Positions 2,715-20,605 are shown, numbered from the stretch's first letter. The stretch is DNA of 21,879 nt from a virus (IMGVR_UViG_3300008266_011995:1-21879), one strand, 5' to 3'. Notes: generated by a model from the letters alone, not told the origin. Made by a program: numbers and translations.

Positions 2715-2734
2715 CGTAGTATATACATTATAAT

Positions 2735-4042: not shown

Positions 4043-4046
4043 AGTT

Positions 4047-4625: not shown

Positions 4626-4642
4626 GGCAATAACCTGAGCTT

Positions 4643-4918
4643 ATGACAGATAATATCTATACGGTTTTGATGACAGCCATTACAGTATTAGGTAGTGCCG
4701 CCGCTTTTCGATTTTATGAGAAAAAGTCAATGCGCAAAGAACGTGATGAAGAATTTATTCGCCACGACTGCAAAGATCGCATATCTAAATTAGAAGCATT
4801 ATTAGCTGAATCTGCTAGAGAAAAAGATGAATTACGTGGTATTGTTTTAAAATTAACTGAACAAGTGGCTGAACTACGTACTAAAGTTGAATTTTTTGAA
4901 AAATTTAAAAATGCATAA
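4643..4918 (+). CDS. Small membrane-anchored coiled-coil protein
   Basis: The product is 91 residues. Residues 5-22 form one hydrophobic helix (VLMTAITVLGSAAAF core). The rest is a charged helix with leucine spacing suggestive of a coiled coil (ISKLEALLAESAREKDELRG and onward). It was probably made as an inner-membrane protein with the helix bundle on one side. This layout fits an i-spanin or a holin-like accessory protein, but no family-specific motif is visible and no lysin gene is nearby. The next gene overlaps its last 8 bases, which suggests translational coupling. Confidence 0.6.
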   Translation: MTDNIYTVLMTAITVLGSAAAFRFYEKKSMRKERDEEFIRHDCKDRISKLEALLAESAREKDELRGIVLKLTEQVAELRTKVEFFEKFKNA

Positions 4919-5147
4919 ATTAACTGAATTATTAGGACTTGTTACTGAAGGTAAAATTGAATACCCAGCAGATCACGAACCAGGAATGCGTGTAACTAAA
5001 GGTGGCTCAATGTGTGCTAACTGTGAATATTGGGTTGAAAAAGGCAATTTATGTAACAACAAATATTGGTTACAATGGCACGATGGCGATGCTAAAATAC
5101 CAGCACCTGCTGACGAATATTGTTGTAATTGGTGGCATGCAAAATAA
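4911..5147 (+). CDS. Small cysteine-rich conserved phage protein
   Basis: I take the start at ATG 4911 rather than an in-frame ATG at 4887. From 4911 the product is 78 residues, overlaps the upstream gene by only 8 bases, and begins with MHKLTELLGLVTEG, a short amphipathic N-terminus like those of several neighbours. It has cysteines C35 and C38 (CANC), C48, and the pair C71/C72, surrounded by Trp/Tyr residues (YW, WLQWHDG, CCNWW). The pattern recalls small metal or iron-sulfur (HiPIP-like) proteins reported in phages, but the cysteine spacing differs from classical HiPIP. A zinc or Fe-S site is plausible; function unknown. Confidence 0.65.
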   Translation: MHKLTELLGLVTEGKIEYPADHEPGMRVTKGGSMCANCEYWVEKGNLCNNKYWLQWHDGDAKIPAPADEYCCNWWHAK

Positions 5148-5153
5148 CATAGT

Positions 5154-5795
5154 ATGAAAAAACAAGCAATTTATGAAGTTAATGATTGTGGATGTAACGG
5201 TCCTAAATTATTACTTAAGGAAGGATGGGAATTAATTACTATTTCTGAAGGACTTAAATATCATATTCAAGAAGGTAGAATGTTAGTTCATAACATTTAT
5301 CGTCCACTATCTGAAAACTATTTTTCTTTATTTCGTGAAGCACGCGAATTATACAATGAAGGTTTACTTTCCGTGACTGAAGATGATGCTGAATTACTTG
5401 AGTCAAATATCGGAGAATACGCGTTTTATAATGGCGTTAGAGTACCATTAGACTACCCAATATCAGTTGATGAATTAGTACAATTACATGAAGAATTAGA
5501 GCTTGAAGAAGCAGATAAAAAGAAAAAAACACCACCAATTGGCAAACCAAAACGTGGTGGTTCAAAAAAATTCTACGTTTACGTTAGAGATAAAGGTAAA
5601 ATTAAAAAAGTATCATTTGGTGATACAACAGGATTACGTGCAAAACTAAATAATCCCAAAGCACGTCAGGCATTCTCAAAACGCCACGACTGTCCAAATA
5701 AAAAAGATAGAACCAAAGCATCATACTGGAGCTGTCGTTTACCACGCTACGCTAAACTGTTAGGATTTAAAACATCATTTAGCGGTTATTGGTAA
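5154..5795 (+). CDS. Conserved phage protein with C-terminal Lys-rich mini-domain
   Basis: The 213-residue product has two parts. The N-terminal 110 residues contain a CGC motif (12-14) and an alpha/beta-looking segment with no recognised family. A Lys-rich linker (KKKKTPPIGKPKRGGSKK) leads into a C-terminal module of about 80 residues. That module contains FYVYVRDKGKIKKVSFGD, then HDCPNKKDRTKASYWSCRLP and YAKLLGF. I recall the same module from many large aquatic phages, where it is appended to otherwise unrelated proteins (a DUF5872-like module, from memory). Cys/His content suggests metal binding and the charge suggests DNA contact. The gene begins 6 bases after its upstream neighbour. Confidence 0.7.
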   Translation: MKKQAIYEVNDCGCNGPKLLLKEGWELITISEGLKYHIQEGRMLVHNIYRPLSENYFSLFREARELYNEGLLSVTEDDAELLESNIGEYAFYNGVRVPLDYPISVDELVQLHEELELEEADKKKKTPPIGKPKRGGSKKFYVYVRDKGKIKKVSFGDTTGLRAKLNNPKARQAFSKRHDCPNKKDRTKASYWSCRLPRYAKLLGFKTSFSGYW

Positions 5796-5798
5796 AAT

Positions 5799-6446
5799 AT
5801 GAATTATTTCCATAGTGAAAAATACATATGGATATTACCTGAAAGAACAGGCAGTAGAGCATTAGGACAATTACTTAATTTTTGGGTTGGAGAAAAATAT
5901 TGTAATAGTAATGCCCAAGAAATAGGGAGAAAAAAAGATATAAGGGGCAATTTTATTCAATTTTATAGTCACGACTGGAATCTAGTATATAAAGATGCTC
6001 AAGACTATACTTTTTGCCTTACAGTAAGAAACCCATACGCACGAATGTTAAGTTACTATAAAAGCATATTTTTGAAAAAAAATTGCAAAGACAAAGAGTG
6101 TAAATATACGTTTAGTGAGTTTGTAAAAACATCAATGATAGAAAATAAACGTATTTGGCATCTTGAATACGAAAATGTTTTCAACGAAACCAAAATTGAT
6201 TACATAATTCATCTAGAAAATATTGAAGAGGAACTTATGCAAGTTCCTATGATTCAACAAAAATACACAGAATCAGAAGAATTTCGTAAAGAGTGGGATA
6301 GGGTCATTAAAAATAATATATTTGATAAAGAATCTAAAAATAATTATACAAAAGTATCTAACGAAGATGCCCAAATTATATACGATTGTTTCCCAAAACA
6401 ATTTGAACTATTTGGTTATTCAAAAGATAGTTGGATGTACTTATAA
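5799..6446 (+). CDS. Sulfotransferase family protein
   Basis: The 215-residue product shows both PAPS-binding signatures of sulfotransferases: a P-loop-like PERTGSR at residues 14-20 and the 3'-phosphate motif RNPYARMLSYY at 77-87. The C-terminal tail (EDAQIIYDCFPKQFELFGY) is the usual end of the Sulfotransfer_2-like group. It would transfer sulfate from PAPS to a hydroxyl or amine on a sugar or other acceptor, which cannot be told from sequence. In the first 50 codons, four of five Ile are ATA and every Arg is AGA/AGG, unlike the CGT/ATT-rich neighbours. This suggests separate acquisition. It sits 3 bases after the previous gene and 9 before the next. Confidence 0.8.
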   Translation: MNYFHSEKYIWILPERTGSRALGQLLNFWVGEKYCNSNAQEIGRKKDIRGNFIQFYSHDWNLVYKDAQDYTFCLTVRNPYARMLSYYKSIFLKKNCKDKECKYTFSEFVKTSMIENKRIWHLEYENVFNETKIDYIIHLENIEEELMQVPMIQQKYTESEEFRKEWDRVIKNNIFDKESKNNYTKVSNEDAQIIYDCFPKQFELFGYSKDSWMYL

Positions 6447-6455
6447 TTATATAAA

Positions 6456-6716
6456 ATGAAACCATACACAGATATAGAAAATAACGACTCATATATCATC
6501 CGTGAATTTAATGAAAATATTGATCCCATTGAATTGCTGTGGCACCGTGATGATGAAGATCGTACAATTGAAATAATAGGACACACTGACTGGCAGCTAC
6601 AATTGGAAAACTGTTTGCCAACTTCGCTGAATAAACCCATATTTATACCGAGACATACTTGGCATCGTGCTATAAAAGGTACGGGGACATTACGTTTAAA
6701 AATATATAAGCGTTGA
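6456..6716 (+). CDS. Small cupin-like protein
   Basis: The product is 86 residues. It carries ELLWHRDDEDRTIEI (26-40) and FIPRHTWHRAIKGTG (63-77), an arrangement that looks like the two conserved strands of a mini-cupin or jelly roll. H30, E34, H67 and H70 are possible metal ligands. I recall similar WHRDxEDR proteins from T4-like cyanophages, without known function. It lies directly behind the sulfotransferase and its TGA stop overlaps the TTG start of the next gene. A role in modifying or sensing small molecules, perhaps linked to sulfotransfer, is only a guess. Confidence 0.6.
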   Translation: MKPYTDIENNDSYIIREFNENIDPIELLWHRDDEDRTIEIIGHTDWQLQLENCLPTSLNKPIFIPRHTWHRAIKGTGTLRLKIYKR

Positions 6717-7873
6717 TTAAATTAACAGACATACTATTAGAAACATTAACTGAAAAGAAGCTGTGTCCTAAAGGCAAAGCTTATTATAATCGTCGCATAG
6801 CAGCTGGTGAAAAACCGTCCGCATATCTATCAGGGCGCGCAGTTAAAGTATGTAAAGGATTAATGAGTGAAGAAATTGACCCATCAGAAGCATTTAATGA
6901 TACAGATGCTATTAATACATTAGTTAATAGAAAACGTGACTTAGCTTTCATAGTTAAAGACTCTAATACAGACGAAAATTGGGCAAATATTCAAAAAATT
7001 ATCAAGGATAATGACATTAGAATAATGTATGTTAAGGGAAATCCCCACCATGCATATATTGCTTATTTACCTGGTAGTGAAAATAAAGCAACTCAATTAA
7101 AAGATTTAGCTGAGAAATATGACGGATATTTATCCGCTCAAGCATCTAAAGAAGATGCCATTAAAATGGGTCGTTTATTAGGATATAAGGAAGATAAAAT
7201 AAAGGATTTTATTAATAAAAATTTTCCTAACGATCCTATAGACGAATCATTACGCGATTGGTTTAAAAAAGAAGATTGGGTTCGTATTGATACTCAAGGC
7301 AACATTACAGGTCCTTGTGGTACAATGAAAAAAGGTAAAGCAACTACACGTTGTTTGCCTCGTGCCAAAGCAAATCGCTTGACTAAAGCTGAACGCGCTG
7401 CTACTGCTCGTAAAAAAGTAGCTGGTTCTAAAAAAGGAAAACAATTTGTTCCTAATACTGAAAAAGCAAAAGTAAAACTTAATAAAGAAAGTTTAGATGA
7501 AATGAATTTAAAACAAGGACTAGCAGCAGCTGGTATTGCTTTAAGTTCACTCCTAGGAACTCCAGATACTGCAAAAGCAGCAGCACCAACATCTATATCT
7601 CAAGTAGCGGCAAAAAGCATTATTGAAAAAGTAGTTAAAGGATTTGAAAAGGAAGGATATAGTATTGATTTCCTTGAAACAGCAAAATATAAAAATTTTG
7701 AAAATGCTGGTGAAGATGATATTAAAGTAGAATTAGGAGCAGCAAAAACAGAATCAGCAGCTAGATTGGTGATGATGCAATTTATTAAAATTAATAATTT
7801 AGATCGCAATAAAACCTTATTTATGTTCAACCCAAAGGAAGGACAATTCGCCATAATATATATAAAAAAATGA
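6713..7873 (+). CDS. Multidomain phage protein with internal signal-like segment
   Basis: The start is a TTG overlapping the upstream TGA stop by 4 bases. It gives MIKLTDILLETLTEKK, an amphipathic start shared with neighbours. The 386 residues show four parts. Residues 17-51 form a Cys/Lys-rich module (LCPKGKAYYNRRIAAGEKPS ... VCKGLM). Residues 58-172 form an alpha/beta domain with FIVKDSN, IMYVKGNPHHAYIAYL and GRLLGY. Residues 182-250 form a basic module (DWVRIDTQGNITGPCG ... RCLPRAKA). Residues 264-386 start with MNLKQGLAAAGIALSSLLG and AKA, like a bacterial signal peptide, then a small C-terminal domain. Such mosaics are common in large aquatic phages and may be virion-packaged. No catalytic motif is visible. 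Confidence 0.7.
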   Translation: MIKLTDILLETLTEKKLCPKGKAYYNRRIAAGEKPSAYLSGRAVKVCKGLMSEEIDPSEAFNDTDAINTLVNRKRDLAFIVKDSNTDENWANIQKIIKDNDIRIMYVKGNPHHAYIAYLPGSENKATQLKDLAEKYDGYLSAQASKEDAIKMGRLLGYKEDKIKDFINKNFPNDPIDESLRDWFKKEDWVRIDTQGNITGPCGTMKKGKATTRCLPRAKANRLTKAERAATARKKVAGSKKGKQFVPNTEKAKVKLNKESLDEMNLKQGLAAAGIALSSLLGTPDTAKAAAPTSISQVAAKSIIEKVVKGFEKEGYSIDFLETAKYKNFENAGEDDIKVELGAAKTESAARLVMMQFIKINNLDRNKTLFMFNPKEGQFAIIYIKK

Positions 7874-8802
7874 AACATTCAGAAATAAAAGAAATGATTC
7901 GCCGTGTAGTAAGAGAAAGAAAACTTACAAAAGCGGAAGAAAAGAAAAAAGAAGATATCGTTAAAGGAATGAAAAAATCCTTTAAAGGTGATAAAGCATC
8001 TATGTATGCTATTGCTACTGCTAAAGCTAAAAAAATAGCTGAAGCTGATGATAGTATTAAAGTTAATCAACCTGATTATAAAGGTACAATTCGTAAAGTA
8101 GAAGGTGGGTATCAATTATATGATGTTAATGGTAATGTAGAAGATAAAGAAGTAGGACCTTTTAAAACAATGAGTAGTTTGATGTCATATTATGATATTA
8201 GTATGGATCAATTAAATGAAGCTAAAGGTACTGAATTGACTAGTAAAATATTCGATATTGGTTCTACACTTAAAAAAGTAGAAGCTGCTATGGATTTTGG
8301 TATGGATCAAGACCCACAAATAATTAAAGGTTTAGATCAAGTATACGATGAATTAATTAATGTTTTAGCTCTTATTGAAAAAGATAGAGAAGAAAATAAA
8401 TTTGTTAATGAGGATATTGATATTGGACATCAAGATGATGAACCAGGAATGCTTAAAAATGAATTAGCTAGAACAGCTAAAATGGCTGCTATGCTATATA
8501 AGAAAATTAAAGCATACGGTGATACAGGTGCTGAAATAGATTTCCCACAATGGTGGCAATCAAATATTATTAAAGCTAAAGACTATTTACAAGGTGCTTT
8601 TGATTATTTAGATGGTGAAGAAAGTGTAGCTAAAATTGACGCTACAATGGATGCTTTAAAATTTGAAGAAAAAGACCCATTAGATGTTGTTGTAGCTGAA
8701 AAGAAAGGTAAAGATTTAGATGGCGATGGCGATGTAGATAGTGAAGATTATTTAAAAGCAAGAGATATTGCTATTAAAAAAGCGCAAGCTAAAAAGAAAT
8801 AA
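7870..8802 (+). CDS. Multidomain virion-associated-type protein with C-terminal EF-hand loop
   Basis: The ATG overlaps the upstream TGA (ATGA). The 310-residue product starts with an amphipathic helix (MKHSEIKEMIRRVVRERK). It continues with the Lys-rich module LTKAEEKKKEDIVKGMKK ... MYAIATAKAKKIAE (19-58), a form I recall from many T4-like phages. A middle region follows, then DDEPGMLKNELARTAKMAAM ... DFPQWWQSNIIKAKDYLQ (189-241), another recurrent phage segment. The C-terminus contains a textbook calcium-loop pattern, DLDGDGDVDSED at 282-293 (DxDxDGxVxxxD), followed by a basic tail. A structural or packaged-protein role in the head is plausible, but no function is established. Confidence 0.7.
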   Translation: MKHSEIKEMIRRVVRERKLTKAEEKKKEDIVKGMKKSFKGDKASMYAIATAKAKKIAEADDSIKVNQPDYKGTIRKVEGGYQLYDVNGNVEDKEVGPFKTMSSLMSYYDISMDQLNEAKGTELTSKIFDIGSTLKKVEAAMDFGMDQDPQIIKGLDQVYDELINVLALIEKDREENKFVNEDIDIGHQDDEPGMLKNELARTAKMAAMLYKKIKAYGDTGAEIDFPQWWQSNIIKAKDYLQGAFDYLDGEESVAKIDATMDALKFEEKDPLDVVVAEKKGKDLDGDGDVDSEDYLKARDIAIKKAQAKKK

Positions 8803-8804
8803 TT

Positions 8805-9284
8805 ATGGAATTTCAATCAAAAGAAGAATTAGTAGCACACATTAGAGGTAGAGTGCGTCAAATGATGGGCAAACAATCAGAACAAGCCTATCAAGGTGAT
8901 CCTAACTCTCCTATGAATGTGATGCTCTATAGATTCCCTGAATTGCGTCAGGCATTAGAAAAGTTAATGACAATGCAATTTAGAATATTTGTTGACGATA
9001 TTCAGTGGGTTGCTCCTAAACCAACAACGTTTAGAATTATTCTTGCAAATGGACAAACATTTACTTTAATTTGGAATACAGAAGATTTTATTGCTAAAAT
9101 AGCAGGGGTAAAATATGATATGTTAACGCTTAAGGAACGTGAAAGAGCCACTAAAGAAGTAGCTGAATTGTTACAATATGGCCCAATTAATGCTAACTTA
9201 TCTGGTGATGATTTAGCACAACAAAACCTAACCCCAGCTAAAGGCGAGCCAGTTAATCCTGCTCCACCTCCAGGACAAGTATAA
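8805..9284 (+). CDS. Conserved phage protein, unknown function
   Basis: The 159-residue product starts 2 bases after the previous stop. It begins with MEFQSKEELVAHIRGRVRQM, an amphipathic helix like those of neighbouring products. The middle (residues 45-110) alternates strands and helices, with FPELRQALEKLMTMQFRIFV and TFRIILANGQTFTLIW. The last 25 residues are disordered and Pro-rich (NPAPPPGQV). I do not recognise a family. By position it is the last gene of the 4643-9284 run, and the shared N-terminus suggests it belongs to the same virion-associated set. Confidence 0.65.
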   Translation: MEFQSKEELVAHIRGRVRQMMGKQSEQAYQGDPNSPMNVMLYRFPELRQALEKLMTMQFRIFVDDIQWVAPKPTTFRIILANGQTFTLIWNTEDFIAKIAGVKYDMLTLKERERATKEVAELLQYGPINANLSGDDLAQQNLTPAKGEPVNPAPPPGQV

Positions 9285-9288
9285 TAAA

Positions 9289-9320
9289 TTTGGAAACCCC
9301 AAATATTATTATTACTTTCA
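9289..9320 (+). promoter_or_regulatory. Possible host-type promoter with TTTGG palindrome
   Basis: TTTG at 9289-9292 and a weak TACTTTCA box at 9313-9320 are 20 bases apart, loosely matching the Bacteroidota TTTG/TAnnTTTG pattern. TTTG is part of the palindrome-like TTTGGAAACCCCAAA (9289-9303), close to the element at 11046-11060. It would drive the exonuclease gene. The -7 match is poor. Confidence 0.3.
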
Positions 9321-9341
9321 TAATTAACTTACATATTTGTT

Positions 9342-10100
9342 ATGAGTAAACTAAAAAAGAAAAGACTCTTCTTTGATATTGAAACTAGTCCAAACATTGG
9401 TTTCTTTTGGCAGTCTGGATACAAATTAAACGTACCGTACTCTAATATCATTAAAGAAAGAGCAATCATCTGTATCTGTTACAAATGGGCAGATGAAAAA
9501 CAGGTTTATGCACTTACATGGGATGACAACCAAGATGATAAATCAATGTTGGAAAAATTTATGGTAATCGCTAATGAAGCTACTGAATTAGTAGGACATA
9601 ACAGCGATAAATTTGATTTACCATGGGTTAGAACACGTTGTTTATTTCACCGTATCCCAGTATTTCCAACCTACACTACAATTGATACATTAAAACATGC
9701 TCGTTCTAAGTTCCGTTTTAATAGTAATCGTTTAGACTACATTGCACAATTCCTTAATGTAGGCGAAAAATTAGAAACTGGATTTAATTTATGGAAAGAC
9801 ATTGTTCTTAAAAAGGACAAGAAAGCCTTAAAGCAAATGGTTGATTATTGTAAAAATGACGTTGGAATACTTGAAAAAGTATATAACGAAATTGCAAATT
9901 ACGTTCCACACAAAGTACATTACGGTGTTCAACACACTGATGATAAATGTTCATGTCCTGAATGTGGCTCTACTGATATGAGATTTTCACAAAGACGTTT
10001 TACAGCATCAGGATTAGCACGAATCCAATTACAGTGTAACAGTTGCCACAAATACCATACCGTTTCTAATAGAACATATGAGTCTAGTGTAGAGGAATAA
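9342..10100 (+). CDS. DnaQ-like DEDDy 3'-5' exonuclease with C-terminal zinc ribbon
   Basis: The 252-residue product carries the three exonuclease motifs. Motif I is FFDIETSP with D12 and E14, motif II is GHNSDKFDLPW with D92, and motif III is YCKND with Y169 and D173. This makes it a DEDDy-type RNase H-fold nuclease (the predicted-exonuclease RNase_H_2-like group). It should remove nucleotides from 3' ends using two metal ions. After residue 200 two cysteine pairs (C205/C208 and C232/C235) form a zinc ribbon, probably for nucleic-acid binding. It is not fused to a polymerase. A likely role is phage DNA repair, recombination or host nucleic-acid turnover. It opens a unit of three genes that ends at the 11008 terminator. 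Confidence 0.85.
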   Translation: MSKLKKKRLFFDIETSPNIGFFWQSGYKLNVPYSNIIKERAIICICYKWADEKQVYALTWDDNQDDKSMLEKFMVIANEATELVGHNSDKFDLPWVRTRCLFHRIPVFPTYTTIDTLKHARSKFRFNSNRLDYIAQFLNVGEKLETGFNLWKDIVLKKDKKALKQMVDYCKNDVGILEKVYNEIANYVPHKVHYGVQHTDDKCSCPECGSTDMRFSQRRFTASGLARIQLQCNSCHKYHTVSNRTYESSVEE

Positions 10101-10111
10101 CGAAACATTAC

Positions 10112-10120
10112 ATATTTATA
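10112..10120 (+). promoter_or_regulatory. ATATTTATA motif, copy 3
   Basis: The 9-mer ends 3 bases before the ATG at 10124, much nearer than most copies. If it is a promoter core, the transcript for 10124 would be leaderless or start inside the gene, so this copy could also mark an RNA processing or translation signal. Confidence 0.4.
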
Positions 10121-10123
10121 TTC

Positions 10124-10483
10124 ATGGAAATCGGTCAATTAAAACAAAACATTATCACTGAGGTAAGGAGACTTGTTAAAGAACAAGCTATCCCTATCAG
10201 TCGTACTGAATTAGTTGACAAGATTAAAGCTACAGATCCTCGCAATTCAGGTAGAGGTGAATTCTTTACAGTAACATTTGTTAAAAGAACAGATGGTTCT
10301 ACAAGAACAATGAATGCTCGTTTAGGTGTAAGACGCTATTTAAAAGGTGGAGATTTACCATACGACGCAGCTGCTAAAGAATTATTACCTGTATTCGATG
10401 CACAAAAAGGAGACTATAGAATGATTGATCTACGTAGTATGATTTCTGCTAAAGTAGGTGGTCAAGAATATATTGTAAAATAA
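10124..10483 (+). CDS. SH3-like beta-barrel phage protein
   Basis: The 119-residue product begins with MEIGQLKQNIITEVRRLVKE, the amphipathic N-terminus seen in several neighbours. The remainder (FFTVTFVKRTDGSTRTMNAR, LGVRRYLKGG, DYRMIDLRSMIS, VGGQEYIVK) fits the small SH3 beta-barrel fold proteins often annotated in phages. In those homologues the barrel is usually the whole protein; here it has a helical tag of about 25 residues in front. A nucleic-acid-binding or virion role is possible; no activity is known. Family call is from recalled pattern, not from a search. Confidence 0.65.
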   Translation: MEIGQLKQNIITEVRRLVKEQAIPISRTELVDKIKATDPRNSGRGEFFTVTFVKRTDGSTRTMNARLGVRRYLKGGDLPYDAAAKELLPVFDAQKGDYRMIDLRSMISAKVGGQEYIVK

Positions 10484-10501
10484 AATTAAAAAGTATAACA
10501 A

Positions 10502-10948
10502 ATGGCAAAACAATTTATCTCAGAAGCACAAAGAATGCAAAAATTAGCTAATATGCCTATTAGCGAAATGGCTATCCCAGAAATGGCCCGTACAGCAGGT
10601 ACTGGTGGTGCTTATACTATCACAGAAAAAGGTGAAGAAATTTTAAAGCAAGCTAAAGCTTCTGGAGCTGCTCCTGAAGGTATTAAAAATAGCGAACTTG
10701 CTGCTTTAGTATTCTTATTTAAAGCTAAAAAAGATGGTAAAAGAGTACAAAAAATCGATTACGCTAAGGAAAGAAATGTACCTCAACCAGCAGTAAATCC
10801 TATTTTCAATAGCTTAGAAGTTAAAGAATTAGTATCTAGAGAAGGATATACTTCAAAACAAGAAGAACCTAAAACATCTAGACCAAGACCAGACGTTGGA
10901 TCTATGTTAGGTGATTTAGATATTGAAGAAGCAAAATCTGAAGAATAA
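10502..10948 (+). CDS. Winged-helix-like phage protein
   Basis: The 148-residue product starts MAKQFISEAQRMQKLAN. The FISEA at residues 5-9 resembles the capsid-targeting start of T4 internal proteins (FIAEA, cleaved after Glu). Residues 38-115 look like a winged helix-turn-helix: TITEKGEEILKQAK, then SELAALVFLFKA, the helix DYAKERNVPQPAVNPIFNSL, and a wing LVSREGY. The C-terminus is disordered and acidic. It may bind DNA as a regulator or as a packaged protein delivered with the genome. It is the last gene before the palindromic gap and terminator. Confidence 0.6.
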   Translation: MAKQFISEAQRMQKLANMPISEMAIPEMARTAGTGGAYTITEKGEEILKQAKASGAAPEGIKNSELAALVFLFKAKKDGKRVQKIDYAKERNVPQPAVNPIFNSLEVKELVSREGYTSKQEEPKTSRPRPDVGSMLGDLDIEEAKSEE

Positions 10949-10954
10949 CACACA

Positions 10955-11007
10955 GACTAGATTCATAGCCTAGTCGCCTCATTAGAGGTTCTATATATAT
11001 AGCAGCT
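10955..11007 (+). other. Cluster of short palindromes in the 3' gap
   Basis: Four small palindromic structures precede the terminator. GACTAG/CTAGTC (10955-10960 with 10970-10975) closes a 9-base loop. CCTC/GAGG (10977-10980 with 10985-10988) closes ATTA. CTATATATATAG (10991-11002) and CAGCTG (11003-11008) are perfect palindromes. No tRNA cloverleaf or T-arm is present. It may be a structured 3' UTR or a small RNA. Confidence 0.4.
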
Positions 11008-11043
11008 GTGGCGCTCCTTGAAAAAGGATGCGCCACTTTTTTT
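11008..11043 (+). terminator. Rho-independent terminator
   Basis: The stem 11008-11019 (GTGGCGCTCCTT) pairs with 11024-11036, with one bulged T at 11029 and a GAAA loop. Seven T residues follow. It ends the 9342-10948 unit just upstream of a host-type promoter. Confidence 0.9.
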
Positions 11044-11045
11044 AT

Positions 11046-11077
11046 TTTGGGGAAACCAAATAAAAATACTAACTTTA
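11046..11077 (+). promoter_or_regulatory. Bacteroidota-type promoter for the 11082 gene
   Basis: TTTG at 11046-11049, a 20-base spacer and TAACTTTA at 11070-11077 match the Bacteroidota consensus TTTG/TAnnTTTG except for the last base. The -7 box ends only 4 bases before ATG 11082, so the mRNA is predicted to be leaderless or nearly so. The -33 box lies in the palindrome-like TTTGGGGAAACCAAA. Confidence 0.6.
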
Positions 11078-11081
11078 TATT

Positions 11082-11558
11082 ATGAATATATTTTATATTA
11101 ATACAGATCCAGTCGTTGCAGCACAAGAACTATGTGACGACCATATCCGCAAGATGCAAATTGAATCTGCTCAAATGTTATGTACAGCACATTGGGCTGT
11201 TGGTAGTGAAGCACCATACAAACGTGCCCATTTCAACCACCCATCAACTAAATGGACACGCGAATCAATTCAACATTATAGGTGGCTTGTAGAACATGGT
11301 CTGGAAGTATGTCGTCAATTTACTTTACGTTATGGAAAACACCATAAAACACAAGATGTACTTGAATGGTGTCGTGATAACGAACCTAATCTTCCTGATA
11401 ATGGATTTACACCACCACCTCAAGCAATGCCTGAAGAATATAAAAATGAAGATACAATAGAGGCATATAAAACTTATTATATTCAAGATAAAATAAAAAT
11501 TAAAGGATTAAATTGGAACAAATTAAACAACAAACCGATATGGATAAAAGAATTTTAA
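11082..11558 (+). CDS. Conserved phage/bacterial protein, HCDxHxxKM-type family
   Basis: The 158-residue product opens with NIFYINTDPVVAAQELCDDH, then IRKMQIESAQMLCTAHW, and later HFNHPSTKWTRES, RYGKHHKT, GFTPPPQAMPEEYK and AYKTYY. I recall this pattern as a widespread family in T4-like phages and aquatic bacteria without firm function. Its ending (AYKTYYIQDK ... KPIWIK) vaguely resembles the end of the T4 pyrimidine-dimer glycosylase group, which hints at DNA repair but is not proof. The many His, Trp and Cys residues suggest a metal or nucleotide site. The remnant start of the next gene (ATG 11540) lies inside its last 19 bases. Confidence 0.7.
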   Translation: MNIFYINTDPVVAAQELCDDHIRKMQIESAQMLCTAHWAVGSEAPYKRAHFNHPSTKWTRESIQHYRWLVEHGLEVCRQFTLRYGKHHKTQDVLEWCRDNEPNLPDNGFTPPPQAMPEEYKNEDTIEAYKTYYIQDKIKIKGLNWNKLNNKPIWIKEF

Positions 11559-12731: not shown

Positions 12732-12746
12732 TTGATTGTACCTTTA
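12716..12746 (+). promoter_or_regulatory. Bacteroidota-type promoter for the 12751 gene
   Basis: TTTG at 12716-12719, a 19-base spacer and TACCTTTA at 12739-12746 fit the Bacteroidota pattern. The box ends 4 bases before ATG 12751, and the sequence CTTTATATTATG is identical to that before 11082. The -33 box lies inside the end of the upstream gene. Confidence 0.55.
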
Positions 12747-12750
12747 TATT

Positions 12751-13014: not shown

Positions 13015-13279
13015 AACAACAGAAGGACACACATTAGTTATTTCTCAGACAACACGTTTAGGTCATGATATTACAGACAAAAAAGACCCTAAAGCAAATG
13101 AAAAGATTTGGGTATTACATAATGTAGAAGGTCCTGCCTTAATTACACCAGATAATAAAAAAGAATATTATTTCTGGGGCATTTATCAAGGCAATACAGT
13201 TGAAGTACTTAAAGATTTAAAACGTAATCATACAGGACTTCCACCAGCTAAAAATCCATTATTTAAAACTAGATTATAA
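12998..13279 (+). CDS. Small conserved phage protein, unknown
   Basis: The 93-residue product overlaps the previous gene by 17 bases and its TAA shares one base with the next ATG (TAATG), so the three genes are probably translationally coupled. It contains WVLHNVEGPALITPDNKKEY and FWGIYQG, a beta-rich motif (HN.EGPA....yyfwG) that I recall from unnamed phage proteins. There is no membrane segment, cysteine pair or catalytic signature. Function unknown. Confidence 0.6.
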   Translation: MERKIKTTEGHTLVISQTTRLGHDITDKKDPKANEKIWVLHNVEGPALITPDNKKEYYFWGIYQGNTVEVLKDLKRNHTGLPPAKNPLFKTRL

Positions 13280-13809
13280 TGAAGATAGGTTTTGCAGGTA
13301 CAATGTCAGTAGGTAAAACTACATTAGTTAAAGCACTAGCTGAATTGCCTGAATTTAAAGATTATTATGTTGCTACTGAACGTAGCAAGTATTTACGTGA
13401 TTTAGGTATTCCGTTAAATACTGATTCTACAATACCTGGTCAAATGATATTTTTGGCTGAACGTGCTAGCGAAGTATTGCGTGATAATGTACTGACAGAT
13501 CGTACTATATGGGATGTATGTGCATTTACTTTAAGTGCACAATCCATAAGCAAATACGAAAAAAATACATTTGTAGACGCCGCTTTACTGTTAAAAGACT
13601 ATTATGATATTGTATTTTATGTTAGTCCTCGTGGTGTTAAAGTTGAAGATAACGGCGTTAGAACAACAGATTTAACGTATAGATTCAAGATCGATAAAAC
13701 AATACGTGAGCTGCTTGACGAATATCCACCACAACGATTAGTGGAAATTGAAGGAACAACAGAGGAGCGCATTAGCATTGTGTTAGAAACATTTAATAAA
13801 TATTTATAA
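13279..13809 (+). CDS. P-loop NTPase, AAA_28 / nucleotide-kinase-like
   Basis: The 176-residue product has a Walker A loop GTMSVGKT at 7-14, directly after the first strand (KIGFAG). Residues 34-35 (ER in VATERSKYLRDLG) and D74-R75 (LTDRTIWD) correspond to the substrate and DRx motifs of thymidylate and deoxynucleoside kinases. A hydrophobic strand (YDIVFYVSP) and Arg-rich lid-like segment (GVRTTDLTYRFK) follow. This group (AAA_28, NadR-like) phosphorylates nucleosides, nucleotides or related small molecules with ATP. In a phage a dNMP-kinase role in supplying DNA precursors is likely, but the substrate is not readable. It shares one base with the upstream stop codon. Confidence 0.8.
   Translation: MKIGFAGTMSVGKTTLVKALAELPEFKDYYVATERSKYLRDLGIPLNTDSTIPGQMIFLAERASEVLRDNVLTDRTIWDVCAFTLSAQSISKYEKNTFVDAALLLKDYYDIVFYVSPRGVKVEDNGVRTTDLTYRFKIDKTIRELLDEYPPQRLVEIEGTTEERISIVLETFNKYL
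13800..13808 (+). promoter_or_regulatory. ATATTTATA motif, copy 4
   Basis: The 9-mer overlaps the last codons and stop of the kinase-like gene and lies 20 bases before ATG 13829. That position marks the switch from enzyme genes to head-assembly genes. Confidence 0.45.
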
Positions 13810-13828
13810 CGGACACAAACAACAAACA

Positions 13829-14901
13829 ATGAAAAAAAACGAATTAAAAGAATATATTAAATCACGTGTTCGTGAAGCATTATATGTAGGTAAAGCTGCT
13901 GAAGATGAATTGCAAAAAGATAAAAGATTTAGTGCTTTACCTCCTACTGAAAAAACCAATGCTGTTTCAAAATTAAGAATGGGTGGATCTGTTGAGTTAG
14001 GTGAAACTGAACTCATGGAAATGGCACGTAAAGCAGCCACATTTAAAGTAGCAGCTGATTTTAAGGAAAAAGCTAAAGGTATTAAAACTGGTGGTCCAAT
14101 TAGTCCTAAAAAATTAGAGGATATTATAGCACCACTGGTCCTGCAATTGCTGCTGGTGTTGGTTTTGAAGGTAAAATGCCCCGTATATATCCTATATTCG
14201 CTGCTTTAATTGATGTTGGTGCTCTTGTAGGCACAGAACAAGAAAAAACAGAAGATATCCCTGAAACACCTGAAAATGAAGACGAGGATATTGAAGATAT
14301 TTTAGATCCTGAAGATACTGTTGAAGATGAAGGTGAAGATGAATTTGAAAAAGAACCTGGTGCAACAGATATTGAAAAAGCACCTCCAATAACAATGGAT
14401 CCTGTATCACAAGCATCAGTTGAATTTGTTACAAACAACGATAGATTAATTCAATCTATTATCAATAATTATAAAGAATCAAGATCACGTTTGGGTGCTA
14501 TTCGTGAGGAAGAAGGCGATTTAAATGCTGCTGACTATAAAAAAGCACTTAAGAAAAGTAAAGAATTAGCTACAGATGTATTAACACAAAAAATAGATAC
14601 ATTAGTAGATAAAATCAAAGAATTAGAACCATCAGTACAAGATAAAGTACTTAAATCACTTGATTTCAAATTCAAATCAGTAAATGCTGATTATCTTTCT
14701 AAAATTGTAGCTAAAAAATTAGGTAAAACTATAGCTCCATCTGCCCCTGAAAAACAAGTAGACGTAGATATTGATATTGAAGATATCGATGATGAAATAA
14801 TGGAAGATACAGGTGTTGAAGATGTAAGCTATGAACCAACGTTCAAAGATTATGAAAACATATATGAGCGTATGCAAAAACTTGTAAACTATAAAGGATA
14901 A
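13829..14901 (+). CDS. Acidic coiled-coil-type virion protein, frameshifted near 14131
   Basis: Two overlapping frames appear to be one gene. Frame one (13829-14209) starts MKKNELKEYIKSRVREALYV and is sensible up to KKLEDIIAP, then becomes an unlikely Leu/Val run. Frame two, open from 14110 and ending at 14901, becomes sensible at TGPAIAAGVGFEGKMPRIYP (from 14134). Adding one base near 14131-14134 gives a continuous 357-residue protein reading IIAP-TGPAIAAG. The repaired protein has an amphipathic N-terminus, a Gly/Ala-rich segment, a very acidic region (EDEDIEDILDPEDTVEDEGE), helices, and another acidic stretch near the C-terminus. Acidic helical proteins in this position may be scaffold or head-internal proteins. 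No classic slippery heptamer is seen, so mutation or assembly error is likelier than programmed shifting. Confidence 0.65.
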
Positions 14902-14905
14902 TTGT

Positions 14906-15625
14906 ATGAAAAAAATATTAGATATTATTTCTAAAAACAAAAAACCGTTATTAATAATTGCTATTATTATTTTATTATTTGTTTTACTTGGTCTTTTTAA
15001 TAACAAGTATCATAAAAAAGAAATTAAAGTATTAAAGCAACAAATTGAACAGAAAGAAGAGGAGTTTAAAGAAGTAATGGCTGAAAAAGAGCGTTTACAA
15101 GATTCATCTGAATTTTATGAAGCAGCTGCCTATAAAGCAGATGCTGCAGTTGTTCAAGCAAAAGCTAAAGCAGAAAAATTACGTAAAGAAAAAGAAGCAG
15201 CATTAGCTGCACTAAATAATCTTCCCAAAGACGTTATTGATTCATTTTTTGTAAAACGCTATGTTCATGTAGAAAAAATCGGTGTTGATTTAGCTCTTGA
15301 TCAAAATGTAGGTAATGAAGTAGTGAAAGAATTAACTGAAAAAGATTTTTTAGTTACTGAAGTAAGTATAGAAAAAGACCAAAACAAATTATTAAGTGGC
15401 CAAGTAGATACATTAAAAGTAGCACTCAATTTTAATAAATCAGCATTAAATAAAGCCGATTCAGCTATTAAAATTAGAACTCAACAATTACAAATATCAA
15501 AAGATCTCGTTAGTATATTAGAAAAAGATCTTAAAACAGCAAAGAAAAAAGCATTTTGGGGCCGTATTAAAGGCGTTGGTGTAGGTGTTGCTGCTGGTAT
15601 AGTAATCGGTGTTATTGTTAAATAA
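14906..15625 (+). CDS. Two-segment membrane coiled-coil protein
   Basis: The 239-residue product has an N-terminal transmembrane helix (residues 14-31, PLLIIAIIILLFVLLGLF). Long charged helices follow, with coiled-coil character (35-105 and 160-215), and a Gly/Val-rich hydrophobic C-terminus (GRIKGVGVGVAAGIVIGVIV, 219-238). Lys-rich residues on the N-terminal side suggest that end lies in the cytoplasm. The layout fits an inner-membrane spanin-like subunit or another lysis or envelope protein, but no lipobox partner is visible. It begins 4 bases after the frameshifted gene and ends 42 bases before terminase. Confidence 0.6.
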   Translation: MKKILDIISKNKKPLLIIAIIILLFVLLGLFNNKYHKKEIKVLKQQIEQKEEEFKEVMAEKERLQDSSEFYEAAAYKADAAVVQAKAKAEKLRKEKEAALAALNNLPKDVIDSFFVKRYVHVEKIGVDLALDQNVGNEVVKELTEKDFLVTEVSIEKDQNKLLSGQVDTLKVALNFNKSALNKADSAIKIRTQQLQISKDLVSILEKDLKTAKKKAFWGRIKGVGVGVAAGIVIGVIVK

Positions 15626-15634
15626 TAATTTCTA

Positions 15635-15670
15635 CATGCACCTATATATTTATATATAAACACGTGCATG
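15635..15670 (+). promoter_or_regulatory. Hairpin covering the terminase start codon
   Basis: CATGCAC (15635-15641) pairs with GTGCATG (15664-15670), and TATATA (15643-15648) pairs with TATATA (15653-15658) around a TTTA loop. The terminase ATG (15668-15670) lies in the outer stem, so folding of the RNA could block translation. It is seen only as pairing potential. Confidence 0.35.
15646..15654 (+). promoter_or_regulatory. ATATTTATA motif, copy 5
   Basis: The 9-mer lies 13 bases before the terminase ATG, in the apical part of the hairpin 15635-15670. If transcription starts just downstream of it, the outer stem would not be complete in that RNA. Confidence 0.45.
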
Positions 15671-17248
15671 AGCGATCAGAATATTAAGGATATAATTAAG
15701 CAGGAGTACGTTAAATGCATGACGGATCCTGCACATTTCATGAAAAAATATTGTATGATCCAACACCCAACTAGGGGTCGCATACAATTCCATTTATATC
15801 CTTTCCAAGAAAAAGTACTATATCAATTCCAAAAAAATAATTACAACATAGTACTTAAATCTCGTCAGTTAGGTATCTCTACTCTTGTAGCTGGTTTTTC
15901 ATTATGGATGATGTTATTCCATAAAGATAAAAACGTGTTGTGTATTGCAACTAAGCAAGACACTGCTAAAAACATGGTTACTAAGGTAAGATTTATGTAT
16001 GACAATCTACCTTCGTGGTTAAAAGGTGCTGAGAAACCTTTGGAAAACAACAAACTTTTACTTAAATTGGCAAATGGCTCTCAAGTAAAAGCTGTTTCGG
16101 CTGCTAGCGATGCTGGTAGATCTGAAGCAGTATCTTTACTGATAATAGATGAGGCTGCGTTCATTGAAAGTATTGAAGAGATATTTGCTTCTGCTCAACA
16201 AACCTTAGCTACTGGTGGTGGATGCATAGCATTGTCTACTCCTAATGGTACAGGAAACTGGTTTCACCAAACATGGCAGAAAGCAGAAATAGGAGACAAT
16301 TCATTTGTACCTATTCGTTTACCATGGAGTGTACATCCTGAACGAAATCAAGAATGGAGGGTTAGACAAGATAGTGATTTGGGTTTAAGGATGGCTGCTC
16401 AAGAGTGTGATTGTGATTTTGCAACTTCAGGGGATACAGTATTTGAACCTGAAATTATAGGATGGTTTGAAGCTAATTTGTTAGATCCACTTGAAAAAAG
16501 AAGTGTAGATGGTAACTTATGGATATGGGAACAACCCGATTATAGCAAAAGTTATCTAGTAGTAGCCGACGTAGCTAGAGGTGATGGTAAAGACTATTCT
16601 GCGTGTCATGTGTTTGATATTGAAAATGCAACACAAGTAGCAGAATATAGAGGACAAATTGGTACTCGTGATTACGGCCATATGTTAGTAGGTATAGCAT
16701 CAGAATATAATGATGCTTTGTTATCAATAGAAAATGCTAACGTAGGTTGGGATACAGTACAAACAGCCATTGATAGGGGATATAGAAATTTATATTATTC
16801 TCCAAAACAAGATGCATTAACATCTGATCAATGGGCTAGACGATATGAAAGTGATGGAAATTTAGTGGCTGGTTTTACTACATCTGTAAAAACTAGACCA
16901 CTAATGATTGAAAAATTTAGAGAATATGCACATGAAAAATCATGTATTATTCGCTCAAAACGATTAATAGAAGAAATGAAGGTTTTCATTTGGAAAAACA
17001 GTAAAGCCCAAGCACAAGACGGATACAATGACGACTTAGTAATGTCATTTGCTATGGGATTATATTTACGTGATACAGCATTGCGTTTTAGAAAACACAA
17101 TATGGAACAAGATCGCGCAACCTTAACAGGATTTTCAGTAGATAAAGGATTTATGAATCCATATGCTGCTAGAGGCCATAATGCACCTAACGCATGGCAA
17201 ATGCCTACGGATCATGGCAATGAAGATCTTACTTGGTTATTAGGATAA
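15668..17248 (+). CDS. terL: Terminase large subunit, T4 gp17-like
   Basis: The 526-residue product is the DNA-packaging motor and headful nuclease. The ATPase half has a variant Walker A, SRQLGIST (65-72), Walker B LLIIDE (157-162) with catalytic E162, and coupling motif STPNGTG (190-196). The RNase H-fold nuclease half has VVADVARGDGKDYS with D301, LLSIENANVG with E355, and YNDDLVMS with D455/D456, giving the expected acidic triad. Length fits gp17-type terminases (about 520-610). It docks on the portal, whose gene follows at once. No small terminase is recognised nearby. Translation may be affected by the hairpin over its ATG. Confidence 0.95.
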   Translation: MSDQNIKDIIKQEYVKCMTDPAHFMKKYCMIQHPTRGRIQFHLYPFQEKVLYQFQKNNYNIVLKSRQLGISTLVAGFSLWMMLFHKDKNVLCIATKQDTAKNMVTKVRFMYDNLPSWLKGAEKPLENNKLLLKLANGSQVKAVSAASDAGRSEAVSLLIIDEAAFIESIEEIFASAQQTLATGGGCIALSTPNGTGNWFHQTWQKAEIGDNSFVPIRLPWSVHPERNQEWRVRQDSDLGLRMAAQECDCDFATSGDTVFEPEIIGWFEANLLDPLEKRSVDGNLWIWEQPDYSKSYLVVADVARGDGKDYSACHVFDIENATQVAEYRGQIGTRDYGHMLVGIASEYNDALLSIENANVGWDTVQTAIDRGYRNLYYSPKQDALTSDQWARRYESDGNLVAGFTTSVKTRPLMIEKFREYAHEKSCIIRSKRLIEEMKVFIWKNSKAQAQDGYNDDLVMSFAMGLYLRDTALRFRKHNMEQDRATLTGFSVDKGFMNPYAARGHNAPNAWQMPTDHGNEDLTWLLG

Positions 17249-17250
17249 AA

Positions 17251-17259
17251 ATATTTATA
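17251..17259 (+). promoter_or_regulatory. ATATTTATA motif, copy 6
   Basis: The 9-mer fills the 14-base gap between the terminase stop and the portal ATG at 17263, ending 3 bases before the ATG. The same spacing is seen at 10112-10120. Confidence 0.4.
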
Positions 17260-17262
17260 CAC

Positions 17263-19125
17263 ATGATAGACACATCTTTATTTGGTAGGTTAAAAAGATT
17301 ATTTTCAACTGACGTTATTATTCGTAATGTTGGTGGTAATCAAGTATCAGTAATAGACACTGATCATATTCAATCAACAGGAGTAGTACAAACCAATATG
17401 TACCCTGAAAGATACCAGAGAATATATACTGGTGGTTTAGGTACATACATTGGTAATGCTCCTTACTCTAATTATACAATATTAAGACCGCAGTTATACA
17501 ATGACTATGAAGTAATGGACGGTGATCCAATCGTAGCATCTGTATTGGATATTGTAGCTGACGAATCTACACTTAAAAATGGTGCAGGTGAAGTGTTAGC
17601 TATTAAATCACCTGACGAAAATATTCAAAGAATATTATATAATTTATTCTACGATATATTAAATATCGAATTTAACCTTTGGGGTTGGGTTCGCTCAATG
17701 TGTAAGTATGGTGATTTTTATCTACATTTACACATCTCAGAAAAATATGGTGTTTATCAAGTAATACCTCTTAACGTTTACAACGTTATCCGTGTAGAAG
17801 GACTTGACCCTAAAAACCCAGCTTATGTGGAGTTTAGAGTTGAACCAAATGCATCATATACAGGTGTATTAGGAATGAGTGATAAAACAAGTGTTAAGTT
17901 TGAAAACTATGAAATAGCAAACTTTAGATTATTAGGTGACTATAACTTCCTTCCTTATGGCCGTTCATATATTGAACCAGCTCGTAAGATATTTAAGCAA
18001 TTAGCATTGATGGAAGATGCAATGTTAATTCACCGTATTTTAAGAGCACCGCAACGTCGTGTTTATTATGTTGATACAGGAAATATTCCACCGAATGAGA
18101 TTCCTACATTCATGGAAAAATTAAAAACGCAAACACAACGTACTCCATTTACAGATCCTAAAACAGGTGAATATAATTTACGTTACAACATGATGAACGT
18201 AAATGAAGATTTCTATGTACCTGTTAGAGGTGGAAATACAAATACTAAAATTGAAACATTACCTGGTCTTGAATATAATGCAATTGAAGACGTAGTATAT
18301 TTAAGAGATAAAATGTTAGCTGCTATGAAAGTTCCTAAGGCATTCTTAGGATATGAAGCTGACGTTGAAGGTAAATCTACATTAGCACAACAAGATATTC
18401 GTTTTGCTCGTACAATTGAGCGTATTCAACGTATAGTAGTGAGTGAATTAACTAAAATTGCGTTAGTACACTTATATGCGCAAGGATATACTGACGAGAA
18501 TTTAACGAATTTTGAGTTGGAATTAACTACACCATCAATTGTATACGATCAAGAACGTATTGCATTGATGAAGGAAAAAGTTGATCTAGCTAAAAATATT
18601 ATGGATGCTAGCTTGTTCCCATCAGACTATATCTACGATTACTTATTCCATATGAGTGAAGACAAATATGATGAGTTACGTGATCAAGTAGTTGAAGACA
18701 AAAAGCGCCAATTCCGTTTATCTCAAATTGAAAATGAGGGTAACGACCCAGTTATGAGTGGTCAATCATACGGAACACCACATGATTTAGCATCACTATA
18801 CGGAAAAGGACGTAACGGAGTAGGTGTACCGCCAGCATATGATGAAACAAATCCTGTTGGAAAACCACAAGAAAAAACATCAGTGTATAATACACAGAAA
18901 CGCACATTGGGTAAAGATCCATTAGGAAAAAGTATAGATATCCAACCAGACTCACCTAAACCCGCTGAACCTAAAAATGGTTCACCTCTAGCACTTGAAA
19001 GTACTAAGGCTATATACATGCAGAATAAACAAATGCTTGAGGAAATGTTTAAAAAATCTAATGTATTTGACAAAGAGAACACTGGAGATTCGCTGCTGGA
19101 TGAATCAAATATTAAAGATATATAA
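17263..19125 (+). CDS. Portal protein, T4 gp20-like
   Basis: I take ATG 17263 (MIDTSLFGRLKRLFSTD), not the in-frame TTG at 17233. The extra ten residues from TTG lie in the terminase gene and spell the ATATTTATA motif. The 620-residue product shows the T4-type portal core: DGDPIVASVLDIVADEST, then WGWVRSMCKYGDFYLHLH, a region with ISEKYGVYQVIPLNVYNVIR, then DAMLIHRILRAPQRRVYYVD and VPKAFLGYEADVEGKSTLAQ. It forms the dodecameric ring at one head vertex for DNA entry and tail joining. The C-terminal 120 residues are Pro/Gly-rich and probably flexible. Unlike T4, no sheath and tube genes separate it from terminase. Confidence 0.93.
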   Translation: MIDTSLFGRLKRLFSTDVIIRNVGGNQVSVIDTDHIQSTGVVQTNMYPERYQRIYTGGLGTYIGNAPYSNYTILRPQLYNDYEVMDGDPIVASVLDIVADESTLKNGAGEVLAIKSPDENIQRILYNLFYDILNIEFNLWGWVRSMCKYGDFYLHLHISEKYGVYQVIPLNVYNVIRVEGLDPKNPAYVEFRVEPNASYTGVLGMSDKTSVKFENYEIANFRLLGDYNFLPYGRSYIEPARKIFKQLALMEDAMLIHRILRAPQRRVYYVDTGNIPPNEIPTFMEKLKTQTQRTPFTDPKTGEYNLRYNMMNVNEDFYVPVRGGNTNTKIETLPGLEYNAIEDVVYLRDKMLAAMKVPKAFLGYEADVEGKSTLAQQDIRFARTIERIQRIVVSELTKIALVHLYAQGYTDENLTNFELELTTPSIVYDQERIALMKEKVDLAKNIMDASLFPSDYIYDYLFHMSEDKYDELRDQVVEDKKRQFRLSQIENEGNDPVMSGQSYGTPHDLASLYGKGRNGVGVPPAYDETNPVGKPQEKTSVYNTQKRTLGKDPLGKSIDIQPDSPKPAEPKNGSPLALESTKAIYMQNKQMLEEMFKKSNVFDKENTGDSLLDESNIKDI

Positions 19126-19133
19126 TAAAATAC

Positions 19134-19142
19134 ATATTTATA
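19134..19142 (+). promoter_or_regulatory. ATATTTATA motif, copy 7
   Basis: The 9-mer lies after the portal gene and 17 bases before the GTG start at 19160, the same spacing as copy 2. Confidence 0.45.
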
Positions 19143-19159
19143 ATTAGTAAATTCATAGT

Positions 19160-20011
19160 GTGAAACTAAAACATAATAAATTTAAAAATACTGGTATTTT
19201 ATTTGAACTTCTCACCAGGCAAATCACTGCTGATATCATGTCTAATAAAGATTCAGCAGCTGTTGGTATCGTAAAAAATTATTTTTCGCGCGGCGAGATT
19301 GCCAAAGAATATAAGTTATACCAAACATTAACTAAGGTAACATCATTAAGTGAAGCTAAAGCCGAAATTGTTATTTCGTCTACTATTAAATTAGCTGAAC
19401 GTTTAAATCGTTCTAATCTCCGCAAAGAAAAATATAACTTAATTAAAGAAATTAAGGAAAACTACGATTTAGAAGAGTTTTTCAAAGCAAAAATACACAA
19501 CTATAAAGCACAGGCTGCTATCTATAATTTAATAGAAGCGCATATTTCAAGTGAGTTTATAGATCCTTCTTTTGTTGTTGATAACAAAGTAACTTTACTT
19601 GAGTTTTTAACGAAACAAAACGTAGATAAAAATAAGATTGAAGATCAAGTAATGCTTGAATATACTTCTCAAGACAAAGCTACCCGTAATTTGATTTCTA
19701 AAATAATGATTGAGAAATTTAATGAAAAGTATGCTAATTTGTTGCCTGAGCAGCGTGATGTATTAAGAATATATATTAATAAAATATCTAATACTGTTTC
19801 TTTACGTGAATACGTTAACAAGAGCTTTGAAGATGTTAAAAAATCATTAGTTGAATTAAGTGCTAAAGTTGCTGATCAAAGAACACAGATCAAACTTAAA
19901 GAACTTCAATCAATTATTAAGCCACTTGACAAAAATGAATCAGTTAAAGATGAAGATATATTAAATCTTCTTCAGTTTCATGAACTAATCCATGAAATCA
20001 AAACATTATGA
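19160..20011 (+). CDS. Conserved portal-adjacent phage protein
   Basis: The start is GTG, giving (M)KLKHNKFKNTGILFELLTRQ. The 283-residue product is almost wholly helical, with no membrane segment or cysteine cluster. Its opening (KHNKFKNTGILFELLTRQIT) is a pattern I recall in aquatic T4-like phages, in a gene next to the portal. Later features include HNYKAQAAIYNLIEAHIS and EQRDVLRIYINKISNTVSLR. By position between portal and scaffold-like genes it may be a head-core, head-completion or packaging protein. No enzymatic motif is seen. Its TGA overlaps the next ATG (ATGA). Confidence 0.7.
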   Translation: MKLKHNKFKNTGILFELLTRQITADIMSNKDSAAVGIVKNYFSRGEIAKEYKLYQTLTKVTSLSEAKAEIVISSTIKLAERLNRSNLRKEKYNLIKEIKENYDLEEFFKAKIHNYKAQAAIYNLIEAHISSEFIDPSFVVDNKVTLLEFLTKQNVDKNKIEDQVMLEYTSQDKATRNLISKIMIEKFNEKYANLLPEQRDVLRIYINKISNTVSLREYVNKSFEDVKKSLVELSAKVADQRTQIKLKELQSIIKPLDKNESVKDEDILNLLQFHELIHEIKTL

Positions 20012-20598
20012 TACCAGAGGCATTAAAAAAATATATTGATGAATTAATTACGTCTCATTTAGAAGAAATGGACGGTGCTACATCAACTACTGCTAGCGCT
20101 GGTGGTGAATATACTAGCAAATATTTTCTTAAAAAACCTAAAAAGTTAGAAGAAAAAACACCAACATTAGCTGCAGGAACAGCTAATATTAGCACATATA
20201 CTAAAGATGGTTTTACAAAAGCTAAAGAAGGCATGCCATCTGATTCTAAAATATACGATTACAAACAATTTCCTGCAAAACCAGAACCAAAAAGATATAA
20301 ATTGTATAAGGAAGCATTAAAAGATATGATTAAAGACGAATTATTAAACGAAATTTCATATCGCCGTTTTGCAGAAAACGTATCTAAAATTTCTTCTGAA
20401 CGTAAAATTACTCGTGCATTAAATGAAGTTAGAAAACGCATTAGAGAGATTGAACAAGTAATTGAATATTCTAATAGATTAAAAACTGAAAATACAATTA
20501 AAAAAGAATCATTTTGGACTTCAAAAACAGAGCAATTAAGTGCATTGTCTGAAAGACTTAATGAATTATCAAATAAAATTAGAACTTTATCTCAATAA
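20008..20598 (+). CDS. Prohead core-like protein with candidate protease sites
   Basis: The ATG overlaps the upstream stop by 4 bases. The 196-residue product starts MIPEALKKYIDELITSHLEE, followed by MDGATSTTASAGGEY. A helix ending in LEE and then a Gly/Thr/Ser/Ala-rich linker is the layout of a cleavable propeptide. A second copy of this arrangement occurs at residues 103-118 (ALKDMIKDELLNEISY). The C-terminal 80 residues are a charged coiled coil (ALNEVRKRIREIEQVIEYSN and onward). Position and composition suggest a prohead core or scaffold component cut by a prohead protease, which is not in this window. No firm family. Confidence 0.6.
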   Translation: MIPEALKKYIDELITSHLEEMDGATSTTASAGGEYTSKYFLKKPKKLEEKTPTLAAGTANISTYTKDGFTKAKEGMPSDSKIYDYKQFPAKPEPKRYKLYKEALKDMIKDELLNEISYRRFAENVSKISSERKITRALNEVRKRIREIEQVIEYSNRLKTENTIKKESFWTSKTEQLSALSERLNELSNKIRTLSQ

Positions 20599-20605
20599 TT
20601 AAAAT

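Follow-up and report, generated by a model that had tools for sequence, protein, structure and literature searches.

The leader principle is already known in T-even phages, the group in which a packaging leader has so far mainly been described. The internal proteins of T4, which disarm host restriction at injection (PMC12373910), carry capsid-targeting sequences, as described for IPI, IPII, and IPIII (Mullaney and Black 1996, as cited in PMC9026906). In IPIII (MKTYQEFIAE↓A, the arrow marking a known or predicted cleavage site), residues 4 and 7 direct targeting while residues 8 and 10 direct processing (PMC9026906), and the first 10 residues of gp24 (MAKINELLRE↓S) are removed (PMC9958956). In the head propeptides of phiKZ and SPN3US, too, a diverged prohead protease cleaves behind Glu, and identical short N-termini occur there on diverged paralogues; however, cleavage in these phages is at S/A-x-E, and the propeptides are mostly much longer (PMC5694885, PMC9026906).

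The window analyzed here is the whole of a virus contig (IMGVR_UViG_3300008266_011995; 21,879 bases, ~33% GC). Like T4, it has a short N-terminal leader common to otherwise unrelated proteins; one class of leaders, MIKLxDILxE, keeps the spacing of the T4 capsid-targeting sequence (hydrophobic residues at 4 and 7, [ILV] at 8, Glu at 10), and a cleavage-type site goes together with a protease of the gp21 family, seen in the relatives. The system differs from that of T4 in dividing its leaders among about four classes, where T4 has a single consensus, in placing the site anywhere from residue 8 to 24, in having many more bodies, some of them enzyme-like, and in belonging to Bacteroidota-type far-T4 phages. 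The propeptide of gp24 has nearly the same pattern as MIKLTDILLE↓T of the window and MSTINSLLE↓S of the relatives' major capsid protein, but gp24 is a vertex shell protein and not cargo. The sites are [ILV]xE within residues 8-24, and neither the S/A-x-E motif nor the long propeptides of the phiKZ type were encountered. No description of this breadth, of the exchange between classes, or of the cassette was found in the literature searched.

Eight similar N-termini in a far-T4 head module

Relatives were collected with the portal protein as query. The nearest is an 86-kb metagenomic genome, G001 (portal 88% identical), and among isolates Flavobacterium phage immuto (NC_055915, grown on Flavobacterium sp. 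LMO8) and Microcystis phage Mel-JY01 come closest (portal 54-55% identical; no paper on the latter was found). A megablast search of positions 2700-21879 against phage records gave no matches, and Pfam and PHROGs gave nearly no annotation for the leader-bearing proteins of the window. From 2.7 kb onward the window is T4-type, the head module of a far-T4 phage, with the terminase (15668) followed by the portal (17263) and head-operon proteins, and ending in a cut ORF at 21106. At positions 1-2658, an open-ended ORF encodes an outer-membrane beta-barrel protein of the TonB/Oar type (PF25183) that shares 68% identity with a protein of a Bacteroidota MAG. Because the relatives have primase and exonuclease genes at this place and the GC skew shifts near 2-3 kb, this part may have been acquired as a gene or may be host sequence that the assembly joined on. 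The features are as follows.

4911-4949, + strand: leader MHKLTELLGLVTE↓G on a Cys-rich 78-aa protein, body at 4950-5144 (51 related loci)
6713-6754, + strand: leader (L/M)IKLTDILLE↓TLTE↓K, TTG start, before the body KKLCPKGKAYYNRR (exact T4 spacing: 4, 7, 8, E10)
7870-7917, + strand: helical leader MKHSEIKEMIRRVVRE on a 310-aa protein (leader clustering; comparison with G001_48330)
8805-8870, + strand: amphipathic N-terminus MEFQSKEELVAHIRGRVRQMMG (MEFQSKEELVAHIRGRVRQMMGKQ), no [ILV]xE site (clusters with other helical leaders)
10124-10183, + strand: helical leader MEIGQLKQNIITE↓VRRLVKE↓Q on a predicted SH3-like beta-barrel protein (G001 orthologue; model)
10502-10567, + strand: leader MAKQFISE↓AQRMQKLANMPISE↓M, MQKLAG class, on a predicted winged-helix-like protein (cluster of 13 genes)
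13829-13876, + strand: helical leader MKKNELKEYIKSRVRE↓A on a 126-aa protein (leader clustering; homologue G003_9326)
15668-17248, + strand: terminase large subunit (PHROG_2, E 4e-49)
17263-19125, + strand: T4 gp20-type portal protein (PHROG_213, E 5e-61)
20008-20067, + strand: leader MIPEALKKYIDE↓LITSHLEE↓M on a head-operon protein (clustering; lies between the portal and the position of the protease in relatives)
21106-21879, + strand: head-operon protein truncated by the window end (prohead protease gene directly after its orthologue in G001)

All eight N-termini begin at genuine in-frame starts. A sequence-only reading of the window had proposed eight similar N-termini and had quoted five cleavage-type sites. 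Each of the five is in the sequence, VTE↓G (4911), LLE↓T (6713), VRE↓A (13829), FISE↓A (10502), and LEE↓M (20008), and two further sites, VRE↓R (7870) and VKE↓Q (10124), can be added. The proposal holds for seven of the eight N-termini; the weakest, 8805, has the helix but lacks a cleavage-type [ILV]xE site. Exact T4 spacing is found in the window at 6713 only, whereas the other leaders have the site at residues 8-22, either keeping phi-[ILV]-x-E at other distances or missing part of the pattern. The E10 spacing of 6713 was read straight from the sequence, the gene caller having chosen a later start; the TTG start is supported because the orthologue in L147 starts with ATG (MIKLTDILLEIITEKKLCPKGKAYY / MIKLTDILLEIITE).

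E20 of 10124 is invariant across six orthologues, as are I6, E8, and MQKLA in the orthologues of 10502. A homologue of 13829, G003_9326, is 38% identical to it across the N-terminal region including the leader, with the site shifted. The AlphaFold model of 10124 has a helix at 3-21 followed by a strand-rich domain, and that of 10502 has a winged-helix-like domain behind a low-confidence leader; the predicted fold labels are drawn from the secondary structure of these moderate-confidence models and from weak Pfam hits. The Cys-rich body at 4950-5144 (CANC...C...CCNWW), which is conserved in 51 viral loci, resembles by eye a high-potential iron-sulfur protein, and a Pfam match is absent. Amid the leader-bearing genes, 5799-6446 encodes a sulfotransferase-family protein (PF03567) without a convincing leader.

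Leader classes, excess over chance, and exchange between bodies

The gene set comprised the window, ten relatives (G001-G010), immuto, and Mel-JY01; genes of the metagenomic relatives were called by a simple script, and some of their starts may be wrong. That similar N-termini stand on otherwise unrelated products, as had been claimed, was borne out when residues 2-19 were compared between unrelated bodies of the window and the 12 relatives (533 body families, grouped on residues 31 onward). Pairs scoring at least 34 make up 6.35 per 10,000 N-terminal pairs, versus 0.56 for shuffled N-termini, 1.05 for internal segments, and 1.55 for C-termini, which is 11 times the shuffled and 6 times the internal value. 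A stricter pattern, phi-x-x-phi-[ILV]-x-E with the Glu at residue 10 (E10), picks IPII, IPIII, and gp24 in T4 as a positive control, and is present in 43 of 1075 genes versus 1.9 expected.

These counts bear on the idea that the leaders reflect nothing but AT-rich, Lys/Ile-rich starts in a phage of ~33% GC, combined with a loose [ILV]xE motif. Such a motif is common and does occur by chance, and 8805 and 5799 look like cases of this kind (the match of the sulfotransferase to the loose rule is probably chance). Under the loose rule, 5 of 28 genes in the window match, versus 2.4% of internal 17-residue windows. However, with shuffling confined to residues 2-25, so that composition was kept, about 2 genes with the E10 motif are expected in the window and G001-G010, versus 38 of 686 found, and with one count per body family 2.5 +/- 1.6 are obtained versus 25. 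In addition, the motif is found in 0 of 95 genes of crAss001, a control phage without this head system. Chance is thus scarcely credible as the explanation.

Unsupervised clustering of N-termini over the window and relatives gave about four leader classes in place of the single shared helix that had been supposed: helical leaders, MKKSELKxxIKExVxxxLxE; MIKLxDILxE, with 4911 and 6713 as window members; MKKQ(F/I)(I/L)(S/T)EExxRMQKLAGIITE, with 10502; and MENFDLKKFLVENKLTxNSKxLxE. The first two form one cluster of 44 body families, including a few ordinary head proteins, and were divided by judgement; the window members outside the second and third classes are all helical. The MQKLAG cluster comprises 13 genes in 12 body families. 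A tblastn search with concatenated leaders was uninformative, with E values of at least 3 for all matches listed. Leader-bearing genes are concentrated near the head genes, with 29% between -18 and +10 kb relative to the terminase versus 6% elsewhere (p=1.5e-18, the genes of related phages not being independent).

The same body is found with different leaders. The G001 orthologue of 10124 (G001_50263) begins MDNFDLKRFLVENKMTRNSQILNE, with bodies 47-51% identical; G003_6032 (MKQADAFDLRKFLAE) and G010_1839 (MIITEETLRLQKLAGIISE) have different leaders on bodies that are 79% identical; and 7870 shares a 62%-identical segment with G001_48330, which has another leader (MFNLENILNE). At the level of sequence, a given body has exchanged its leader from phage to phage. 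The body of 4911 is present at 51 related loci with 29 distinct leaders, nearly all 10-15 residues long, and [ILV]xE coincides with the junction in 19, being close to it in the others (MHKLTELLGLVTE↓G, MYSLLELLKLQE↓G, MISLIKILKE↓G, and MIKLSELILNE↓G are examples). As judged from these alignments, leader length varies on the 4911 orthologues while the [ILV]xE junction persists. One outlier, MKRKFRPGLQARKVPEPT, which matches by a chance VPE only, is probably without a leader. A separate observation concerns L121:13591-14469 (G009_13588): its 293-aa product starts with a helical leader at residue 1 and has another, of the MQKLAG class, around residue 131, as though a pair of tagged cargo proteins had become a single precursor by fusion.

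Amphipathic N-terminal helices may also bind membranes or target host components, and the leaders could in principle serve such a role inside infected cells, with no link to the head; the diversity of classes would suit this. Such a role is very unlikely given the T4 spacing, the conservation of [ILV]xE at the junction immediately ahead of the body, the clustering near head genes, and the presence of the same sites in the capsid protein, and the virion result for S-CREM2 described below also speaks against it, as far as Table 3 of PMC10665884 covers it.

Prohead protease, capsid sites, and virion proteins

A gp21-like protease had been named as the enzyme to look for. An S77 prohead protease is present in eight of the ten relatives, including G001, but it is absent from the window itself. 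In G001 its gene (60707-61342) is the one immediately following the orthologue of the last ORF in the window; the window ends just short of the protease gene, and the protease is therefore seen in relatives only. The relatives' proteases retain the GELxHP (His) and SSRGxGS (Ser) motifs of T4 gp21. At ~25 loci outside the window, sites of the types LLE↓S, LLE↓G, and L(V/I)xE occur in the major capsid propeptides of the relatives. In T4 itself, gp61.1 (gene 61.1, NC_000866 18966-19130, annotated as hypothetical) begins MKTFKEFIKEDM, which reads as a near-perfect candidate capsid-targeting leader.

No virion proteome was found for this phage or a close relative. In the cyanophage S-CREM2, a distant relative, the virion proteome given in Table 3 of PMC10665884 includes all 5 of the E10 proteins of at least 60 aa, namely a SAM hydrolase, a kinase, a cytidylyltransferase, ORF13, and ORF136 (p=0.0015; p=0.003 without the length cut), under a rule that follows published T4 data but was used on S-CREM2 after its list was seen; a looser rule (E8-16) gives p=0.10 only. 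In S-SCSM1, also a distant relative, 1 of 4 E10 proteins is in the virion list consulted, which is not significant alone; the virion NMNAT of this phage carries the leader MKSFLQFLKE↓A. Pooling the two lists gives P=0.007. This support concerns leaders of the MKxFxxFLxE type, as opposed to the MQKLAG, MENFDLKKFL, and long helical ones. The cyanophage virion NMNAT, kinase, and SAM hydrolase thus resemble the proteins described here in having E10-type leaders (MKNFSSFLTE↓A, MKRFDAFLTE↓E, MKDFDSFLEE↓F, and MKSFLQFLKE↓A), but in the portions of PMC10665884 and PMC9602691 used here they are reported just as virion-detected, possible contaminants, with no leader named; the authors of PMC10665884 are undecided whether such enzymes are cargo or contaminants. 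A Cas9-annotated virion protein of S-CREM2 (OR473000 7704-10313) has a leader-like FASFMAE↓A at residues 18-24, which suggests packaged cargo or a misannotated start.

The position of 20008 in the head operon, between the portal and the protease position of relatives, makes it more likely a core/scaffold protein than cargo. Together with the similar N-termini on major capsid and scaffold proteins, this would agree with the idea that all of the leaders are docking helices of structural core or scaffold proteins, which build the prohead and are then destroyed or left, with no cargo involved. That idea is improbable as a general account, since leader-bearing bodies in the relatives match enzyme-like families in Pfam (Zeta-toxin-like kinase, NT5C nucleotidase, and CTP_transf-like), differ from phage to phage, and occupy a cassette upstream of the terminase; the SAM hydrolase, kinase, and cytidylyltransferase with such leaders in the S-CREM2 virion list also argue against it. 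(ADP-ribosyltransferase bodies, suspected by eye in G005_31263, G007_31636, and MEL_60276 by analogy with T4 Alt, are not claimed because Pfam gave no support.)

Taken together, the sharing and exchange of leaders, the retained junction, the protease and capsid sites of the relatives, and the S-CREM2 list as far as it goes support the T4-style capsid targeting first proposed by the sequence-only reading. Very probably, these N-termini represent capsid-targeting leaders of the T4 type on a cargo cassette, from which we infer packaging, cleavage, and injection for this phage. The leader, an amphipathic segment of 9-24 residues, would bind to the scaffold core while the prohead assembles, and during maturation the S77 (gp21-type) protease would remove it by cutting at its terminal [ILV]xE. 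Most leader proteins of 4.9-14.2 kb would then be internal cargo, probably ejected with the DNA, while 20008 would probably be a core protein. The leaders may be viewed as plug-in modules of about four classes, shuffled from one unrelated body to another within a variable cargo cassette that lies upstream of the terminase.

Implications for uncultured phages

It is somewhat probable that these features amount to a plug-in packaging system of far-T4 phages, with at least four interchangeable classes and dozens of cargo bodies, by which one virion delivers a set of enzymes and effectors. Since one and the same body can bear other tags in related phages, the tags allow a prediction, made from the sequence alone, of the proteins that a phage probably takes into its host. 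The leader is recognizable across far-T4 phages and cyanophages, and it provides candidate injected effectors, anti-defence or metabolic, for uncultured phages as well as new leaders for loading proteins into phage heads. The cargo-or-contaminant question of cyanophage proteomics becomes directly testable. If true, the plug-in system would explain the NMNAT, kinase, and SAM-hydrolase proteins in cyanophage virions, and the injected proteome of thousands of uncultured phages would be readable from sequence.
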